64,000 nucleotides of DNA from Synechococcus sp. MIT S9220 (GTDB taxonomy: Bacteria > Cyanobacteriota > Cyanobacteriia > PCC-6307 > Cyanobiaceae). The stretch is from NCBI RefSeq assembly GCF_014304815.1, contig NZ_CP047958.1, forward strand, positions 1,240,001-1,304,000, written 5' to 3'. The notes under the pieces are model-generated. The model was not told the DNA's origin. It did no database searches and worked only from the letters and a program-made list of their open reading frames with translations. A program made the translations under genes and the position numbers. Every line of letters begins with the position of its first letter. Position 1 is the first letter of the stretch. Shown here in pieces: positions 61,265 through 63,998 of this stretch.

Positions 61265-62686
<1,422 letters not shown>

Positions 62687-62745
62687 CCTCTAAGGCCAGG
62701 ACACCACTGGTTGCAACGGGTTTCAGCTTTCAACTGGATAGACAA

Positions 62746-62785
62746 GTGGATAGAGTATCGGTATTACAGCCGGTGCTCTATCTAT
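62746..62785 (+). repeat. Imperfect palindrome over the integrase start
   Basis: GATAGAGTATCGGT (62749-62762) and GCCGGTGCTCTATC (62769-62782) form a 14-bp inverted repeat with three G-T pairs (11 of 14 exact), around a 6-base centre ATTACA. Wobble extends the pairing into the ATG at 62784. TGGATAGA is also repeated directly at 62735 and 62747. The layout matches the core of a tyrosine-recombinase site, or a hairpin hiding the start codon. Confidence 0.6.
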
Positions 62786-63998
62786 GGGGTACATACATCA
62801 GAGGAAGGGACGAAGCGGCTACTACGGCCAGCGGAAGGTTCCACCAGCCCTAAGGGAGCGCATAGGCACGAGCTGCTGGATGCGGAAACTTGGGGCGTCT
62901 CTGGTTGAGGCCAGACGCAACCTGCCTCAGTTCTTGGCGGAAACAGATCTTCTTATTGCAGAGGCGAGGAGAGAGCTTGATCCAGTCCGGAAAATCAGGT
63001 CACTGCTGCCTGACTCTCTGAACCAAGGGGGAGCATTTGACGTGGTGGAGGAGTACACGAGGGTGCCTGCTCATATCGAGGTGGGTCCTGGTGAATGGAC
63101 AGAGAACCCTGAGTTCATCAAGTTGATGGAGCTGGTCCAGGCCAGACGAGATGGCAGTGACAAGCAACCCAGGAGCAAGGACGAGCTACTGCAGCTAGCA
63201 GCGTCACTGAAGCAACCAGCAAGGGCCACAGCAGACCTCTGGAACAGGCATCTCAGTGCATTGATGGAGAGCTGCGGGAAGGAGTCAATCACTGACATCA
63301 CAGAGGACGATGTCCTGAACTTCAGGGCACAGCAGCTAGAGCACATCACCATCAACAGCCTGAAGACCAAGCTCCGCTACATCAGGGCTCTTCTGGAGAT
63401 CGCCAAAGACCAACGGTGGATCGATAGCAACCCAGCCGACGGAGCCACAAAGCACATGGTCTCCAAGGTCAAGATCAAAGAGGTTGTTCGCCTGGACCAG
63501 GCAGACAGTCATTGGCAGGAACTACCCGAGCCTCAGCACCTGCTGTGGCATCTCTGCCGGTGGACTGGTGCCCATATCTCAGAGGTTGCGGGCCTGAAGG
63601 GAGATGACATTGACCTGAAGGAAGGTGTGATCAACATCAGACCCAATGAGTGCAGAGACCTGAAGAATCCATATCGACAGAGGCTTGTTCCAATCCACTC
63701 AAAGCTGCTGCCATATCTGAAGCAGTCGAAGGCAGACATAGACACCAAGGATGGCCTGGTCTTCCCTTGGGCTTACAACGCAGAGCGTGGACGCTGGTGT
63801 GAGGGGATCTCTTGGAAAAGGAAGCTCGGAGTCACACCCAAGGCGACAAGAGATTGGGCAGCATCCTGTCTCAGGGATCAGGGAGTAAATGAGTTCGTGA
63901 TTGGCAGGCTCTTCGGGCACTCACCCAAGACCATCACTGGTCAGTACGGAAGCGTTAGCCAGCAAGCATTAGCCGAAGCCTTAGAACTACTGTCCTGA
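62784..63998 (+). CDS. Tyrosine-recombinase-like integrase with altered catalytic site
   Basis: 404 residues. The N-terminus resembles the DUF6538-type start of phage and island integrases (KGRSGYYGQRKVPPALRERI), followed by a helical SAM-like core-binding domain (about 140-220). The catalytic domain keeps Lys294, Arg356 (PKATRDW), His379 (FGHSPKT) and nucleophile Tyr388 (TGQYG). But the first arginine (usual TGxRxSE) is His264 in TGAHISEVAG, and the histidine of HxxR is Lys353. Arginine AGG/AGA codons are more frequent than in neighbours, suggesting acquired DNA. Probably the edge of an integrated island. Confidence 0.85.
   Translation: MGYIHQRKGRSGYYGQRKVPPALRERIGTSCWMRKLGASLVEARRNLPQFLAETDLLIAEARRELDPVRKIRSLLPDSLNQGGAFDVVEEYTRVPAHIEVGPGEWTENPEFIKLMELVQARRDGSDKQPRSKDELLQLAASLKQPARATADLWNRHLSALMESCGKESITDITEDDVLNFRAQQLEHITINSLKTKLRYIRALLEIAKDQRWIDSNPADGATKHMVSKVKIKEVVRLDQADSHWQELPEPQHLLWHLCRWTGAHISEVAGLKGDDIDLKEGVINIRPNECRDLKNPYRQRLVPIHSKLLPYLKQSKADIDTKDGLVFPWAYNAERGRWCEGISWKRKLGVTPKATRDWAASCLRDQGVNEFVIGRLFGHSPKTITGQYGSVSQQALAEALELLS

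Follow-up and report, generated by a model that had tools for sequence, protein, structure and literature searches.

A tyrosine recombinase with histidine at the first catalytic arginine position in a genomic island at the glnA end of Synechococcus sp. MIT S9220

In tyrosine recombinases the first arginine of the pentad of catalytic residues (Arg-I) counts as essential, and its presence is used to call these enzymes live or dead. The CTnDOT integrase, IntDOT, has serine at this position, and its replacement arginine lies two residues before the catalytic lysine. According to PMC8138268, an arginine located farther downstream takes over the function of the absent first arginine in the CTnDOT integrase, and in the IntDes enzymes of Desulfovibrio the first arginine of the pentad is shifted. 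A lysine may also stand in the second box: R...KxxR...Y is a described consensus or variant of tyrosine recombinases, and SSV1-type integrases with this pattern carry lysine for the box-II histidine (PMC8371274). Among picocyanobacteria, the tycheposons of Prochlorococcus are said to have tRNA genes at their borders (PMC10872708).

The locus considered here belongs to Synechococcus sp. MIT S9220. The window, that is, the whole stretch of 64,000 nucleotides that was analysed, covers positions 1240001-1304000 of the closed 2,424,175-bp genome (labelled G000), and the window features given below all lie on its forward strand. At its right border stands int (62784..63998), an intact ORF encoding a tyrosine recombinase of 404 amino acids in which Arg-I is replaced by histidine. 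The reading that we favour, at a probability of roughly 0.7, is that a site-specific element of 6.77 kb at the glnA end has int as its integrase, with the role of Arg-I taken by Arg298.

Several described systems come close to this arrangement. As in IntDOT, Arg-I is absent and an arginine stands elsewhere, with arm sites (here putative) at both ends; IntDOT, in contrast, comes from a Bacteroidetes family and has serine at Arg-I, whereas int has histidine and its candidate arginine lies four residues past Lys294. The IntDes enzymes share the shifted pentad arginine (PMC8138268) and differ at the first histidine, which is replaced by tyrosine there and by lysine in int. SSV1-type integrases have the same lysine in box II, but they keep Arg-I, belong to archaeal viruses and have an integrase gene that splits on integration. 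Elements of the lambda/Tn916 type resemble this one in having a core with paired tandem repeats inside both ends, and in the catalytic-domain fold of the enzyme; here, however, the target is the end of a protein gene, Arg-I is missing, the element is small and no conjugation genes were recognised in the proteins searched. Tycheposons are likewise tyrosine-recombinase islands of picocyanobacteria, but the border here is not the tRNA gene described for them: the core is the glnA end, and no tRNA gene was found near the left end of the element within the window.

An integrative island at the end of glnA

The host gene, which we take to be glnA (glutamine synthetase; 61265..62686), the name also used in the earlier note, is an ORF present in all 31 genus genomes searched, and the element targets its 3' end. 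The attL core consists of the final 22 bp of the gene including the stop codon, CGTGATGTACTATGACGCCTGA (62665..62686), as identified by empty-site comparison and genome pattern search. The partner, attR, lies outside the window at genome C1:1309433-1309454 (window-equivalent 69433-69454), which gives a repeat-to-repeat span of 6,768 bp with int at the left end. Allowing up to three mismatches, the core was found at exactly two places in 2,424,175 bp, and the reversed-pattern control at none. The ends of the element were located by comparing the locus with genomes in which glnA lies near the same methyltransferase gene. In both of the closest genomes (G301 and G322, 2/2) the site is empty: aligned with them by BLAST, the G000 locus splits in two, and the pieces overlap by 22 bp exactly at the glnA end. 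The GC content of the element is 0.48 against 0.57-0.60 in the flanks. With its att direct repeats and an empty site in relatives, the element is an integrative genomic island. The earlier note had suspected an island edge beyond the window and an insertion after glnA, and the second att copy downstream and the empty glnA sites bear out both. It had also named the outcome that would speak against it, a conserved chromosomal gene in every strain; this is ruled out by the empty sites together with the distribution of int: at E 1e-5, only 55 of the 400 family genomes hold any match to it, and the matches are mostly distant, with broken copies among them.

The surrounding interval varies across the genus. 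In 27 of the 31 genomes glnA and the methyltransferase gene are on one contig, separated by 405-546 bp in 11, about 1.1-1.2 kb in four, 1.9 kb and 3.5 kb in one each, and 4.3-6.8 kb in seven; the longest intervals are 7.3 kb (G000), 8.7 kb (G277) and 17.6 kb (G289).

Where does the crossover fall? The attR copy has the allele of G301 and attL has that of the element, which places the crossover in the shared CGTGATGTACTA, to the left of the first mismatch between attL and attR. The element would thus supply its own glnA tail. The codon changes between attL and attR (TAC to TAT and GCT to GCC) are both synonymous, so the C-terminus of GlnA is still VMYYDA. In the mechanism that we envisage, int would recombine a short core on the circle of the element, a presumed circular intermediate, with the conserved glnA 3' end, and the crossover within the shared segment would leave the host protein intact.

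The glnA end is also occupied elsewhere. In G289 (L096, G289:C1:1455500-1474500), two copies of the core are found 17.1 kb apart. The integrase of this element has 599 amino acids and keeps Arg-I, and it is accompanied by a terminase large subunit (PHROG 38, 6.8e-39), a replication-type protein and a further recombinase-like ORF that matches no family; the element looks like a phage satellite. Since the G000 and G289 integrases differ, the glnA end is a hot spot for at least two different integrases. In G277 (L097, G277:C12:449000-459500), three copies of the glnA tail stand in a row (at 811, 5377 and 8981), the last degraded, which indicates two units side by side; the ends resemble those of the G289 element, and no integrase was seen at this locus. 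The remaining 12 of the 14 loci examined have one core copy each. A limited literature search returned no account of glnA as an integration target.

Tandem repeats and a hairpin at the start of int

The int gene starts 97 bp past the glnA stop codon and is co-oriented with glnA. In the space between them lie two tandem 12-bp direct repeats, CAACTGGATAGA and CAAGTGGATAGA (62731..62754), which are putative arm-type sites. The same pair recurs inside the right end in the same orientation (C1:1309347-1309369), and a pattern search places it at exactly these two positions genome-wide, while the reversed pattern gives no hit. The direct repeats TGGATAGA, which the earlier note had assigned to a core site, are real and consist of these two tandem 12-bp units, but they are paired, subterminal and repeated inside the right end; to judge from their sequence and placement, they look like paired subterminal arm-type sites of the integrase. 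Relatives have tandem repeats of their own at the corresponding place, such as the GTGACTAAAG units that the G131 element carries at its two ends. As in integrases of the lambda/Tn916 type, the N-terminal part of int would probably bind the tandem 12-bp repeats present inside both ends.

The second repeat unit and the start codon of int are overlapped by a hairpin of 17 base pairs with a 6-nt loop (62746..62785), which extends over the A and T of the ATG and is built partly from the second repeat unit and its inverted partner. Its stability corresponds to z = -5.8, and none of 200 dinucleotide shuffles was equally stable. The imperfect palindrome reported earlier over the start codon is real, and stronger than described, with 17 base pairs in place of 14. 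It had been read as a recombination core, with a second copy of its centre expected elsewhere in the genome as an att pair. Strong as it is, and adjoining int, the palindrome is present in a single genome copy inside the element; the insertion border is some 60 bp distant, at the end of glnA, where the core of the att pair is found, and no such palindrome was seen at 12 other family starts. The single copy and the position of the border rule out this role, to which we give almost no credence.

What might the hairpin do? It is possible that it acts as a translation lock, hiding the int start in transcripts reading through from glnA and so damping the integrase while the element is integrated. 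The position of the hairpin over the first two ATG bases and the co-oriented position of int just past the glnA stop codon would suit such a lock. However, none of 12 other int starts folded in the family, several of them placed roughly, fell below z = -3 (the next values being -2.3 and -2.0), and one arm of the hairpin also copies a repeat unit. A lock is compatible with the favoured reading of int as the integrase of the glnA element, and on the sequence evidence we regard it as a rather doubtful function. Alternatively, because the hairpin arm is a copy of the repeat unit, the palindrome may include a third, inverted arm site. As a feature conserved in the family the hairpin was rejected, only one of 13 folded starts being below z = -3.

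Loss of Arg-I in an integrase clade

The catalytic domain of int identifies it by sequence and fold as a tyrosine recombinase of the integrase family. The protein matches PF00589 (Phage_integrase) at 1.3e-8, above the Pfam cut-off, and PHROG 1 at 5.1e-33, and its match to DUF6538 (24.3 bits) is under the cut-off of 27. The predicted model of the catalytic domain (pLDDT 83.8) has the fold of solved tyrosine recombinases, with Z 15 to 5vfz and 4a8e; the full-length prediction is poor (pLDDT 67). A second, weak match to int in its own genome (26%; G000:C1:1417024-1417404) lies within a 409-aa open frame.

Profile alignment to XerD pairs His264 (CAT, 63573..63575) with the arginine of TGLRVSEL and Lys353 (AAG, 63840..63842) with the histidine of SPHVLRH. 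With respect to the RKHRH pentad, Arg-I is thus replaced by His264, and the remaining catalytic positions are present: Lys294 (63663..63665), which is invariant in the clade alignment and was matched by eye to the GKGNKER segment of XerD, Lys353 in the KxxR box, Arg356, His379 and the nucleophile Tyr388 (63945..63947). Codons and alignment agree with the earlier account of an intact integrase ORF carrying His264, Lys353, Arg356, His379 and Tyr388. That account counted two altered catalytic residues. His264 is indeed unusual, but Lys353 is an ordinary KxxR variant, found in most Arg-I-bearing relatives of int's own group, which rules it out as a catalytic oddity.

Is the histidine peculiar to this protein? 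Residues were compared over 30 aligned rows (29 distinct), leaving out four fragments (L014, L026, L028 and L030) and L032, in which no ORF was found. Position 264 is histidine in nine rows and arginine in 21. The nine are the intact members of one clade (9/9) and come from eight genomes, two of them from G216, with three genus codes; identity to the window protein is 37-49% among the seven other clade members aligned. Relatives share His264 and the gene is not in every strain, which agrees with the divergent recombinase lineage suggested earlier. Position 298, four residues past Lys294 (CGA in int, 63675..63677), is arginine in all nine His264 rows and in none of the 21 Arg-I rows, which have serine (15), lysine (three, two of them the same gene), glycine (two) or a gap (one). 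The broken member L014 has Tyr264 and Ser298.

A tree was built without columns 264 and 298. With seven distant rows further left out, positions 264 and 298 change once each, the clade support of 79/77 not being strong; with these rows in, the best tree has three label changes, of which the starred branches force only one. Since His264 and Arg298 then represent one evolutionary event, their pairing could be hitchhiking. Altogether, 17 clade-specific positions are listed for the His264 clade.

From the residue pattern, we infer that the catalytic role of Arg-I has moved to Arg298, much as it moved in the CTnDOT integrase, though the new position is probably not the same. In terms of the compensating arginine of the IntCTnDOT subgroup, Arg298 is the candidate in nine of nine members, and its place probably differs from that in IntDOT; the two arginines might converge on one spot from adjacent strands. 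Arg298, which follows Lys294 by four residues, would take up the phosphate-contacting role of the lost Arg-I. It is also possible that the lineage is active and that the loss is made good by His264 itself, which could contact the phosphate as a charged residue, or by Arg259 or Arg291. Arg259 is enriched in the clade (8/8 in one clade comparison) and Arg291 is invariant in the clade alignment. Yet L111 has lysine in place of Arg259, some Arg-I rows have Arg259 as well, Arg291 is common in Arg-I relatives too, and of the three only Arg298 splits the His264 and Arg-I sets completely. We consider such a substitution by another residue conceivable and on balance unlikely.

With Arg298 as the replacement, the clade as a whole would be an active picocyanobacterial integrase clade in which Arg-I has moved from its helix to just after the catalytic lysine (Lys+4), a proposal that we regard as serious and somewhat short of probable. 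To our knowledge, no other case of a relocated Arg-I at Lys+4 has been described. If true, the Lys+4 clade would be a natural experiment on how far components of the tyrosine-recombinase active site can be moved, and which of them. A spreading clade without Arg-I, with a candidate replacement fixed nearby, is also a clean swap system (His264/Arg298 versus Arg264/Ser298) for active-site rebuilding.

Mobility, distribution and cargo

A direct repeat between the int 5' region and downstream DNA was sought in eight of the nine His264 members, the ninth (G256) ending at a contig border. It was found at the expected distance in four of the eight: at glnA (G000), at the 3' end of glyS (G216a), in the 5' region of hfq (G216b) and at the 3' end of yajQ (G054), the names glyS, hfq and yajQ, like those of further host genes, being the ones that the protein ends suggest to us. 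In G225, G101, G222 and G319 no repeat rose above background within the 11-20 kb examined. Control maxima for att-like repeats reach 16, so that scores of 15-16 taken alone are near chance. This applies to the bare repeats of G000, glyS and hfq, and the att assignments there rest on the empty sites. The two pieces join up at glyS in 10 of 12 relatives and at hfq in eight of 12; the junction logic is the same as in G000, which shows that His264 elements move. The yajQ repeat, of 26 bp, is above its controls, no relative being suited to an empty-site comparison, and the yajQ end is probably an integration target. The ends of glnA, glyS, hfq and probably yajQ are thereby added to the integration targets of picocyanobacteria, whose described islands centre on tRNA genes.

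These junctions bear on whether an integrase without Arg-I can be alive at all. It might be that int, lacking Arg-I, is catalytically dead or impaired, and that the insertion was the work of an ancestor, or of another recombinase in trans, and has since become fixed. Across the family Arg-I hardly varies, decay is seen in the clade (R356H in L008), broken copies exist, and the attL/attR mismatches would tolerate an old insertion. However, the int ORF is intact with all other catalytic positions kept, and nine diverged members have retained His264 while sitting at different sites, with empty-site junctions for two of the nine. One would hardly expect a dead lineage to go on reaching new sites, and we hold a dead int to be improbable.

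An active integrase, as we favour, also accords with the Arg-I relatives. All four that were tested (4/4) are at a class V aminotransferase gene with long repeats. That integration follows so similar a pattern whether Arg-I is present or not speaks for working His264 enzymes.

Several loci add detail to this picture. The four Arg-I integrases (L118, L119, L120 and L121) lie in the region of the 5' end of the aminotransferase gene, with repeats of 29-54 bp, and some of their elements have tandem arm-like units at both ends. In the glyS region of two further genomes (L142 in G207 and L150 in G279), element-end DNA is kept at the glyS site, apparently as remnants or as other occupants of the same site. 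The G225 member (L008/L112, G225:C1:1726324-1727529) has lost Arg-II as well (R356H), shows no att repeat in 20 kb and is probably decaying.

The int matches are confined to a narrow group. In a phylum sample of 386 genomes, nine have matches, all within the same family, and no His264 member was found outside the family in that sample. Among named genome contigs, a protein-only scan gave no int relatives and an alignment-based scan gave three, from Synechococcus. Three scans of viral contigs yielded no relative and a phage collection yielded one weak match (26%), and a phage origin by sequence was accordingly rejected. Transfer by phages, which the terminase of the G289 element might suggest, is only a guess.

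Neither conjugation nor packaging genes were recognised among the proteins of the G000 element that were searched. Its cargo includes an HNH-endonuclease-like protein (PHROG 3322, 9.9e-22) and otherwise consists of small secreted or membrane-like proteins, mostly with no known function. One of the cargo proteins, of 131 amino acids and encoded past the window (L003:12930-13325; C1:1307930-1308325), has a signal-peptide-like start and contains a segment of about 30 residues three times over, in nearly the same sequence.
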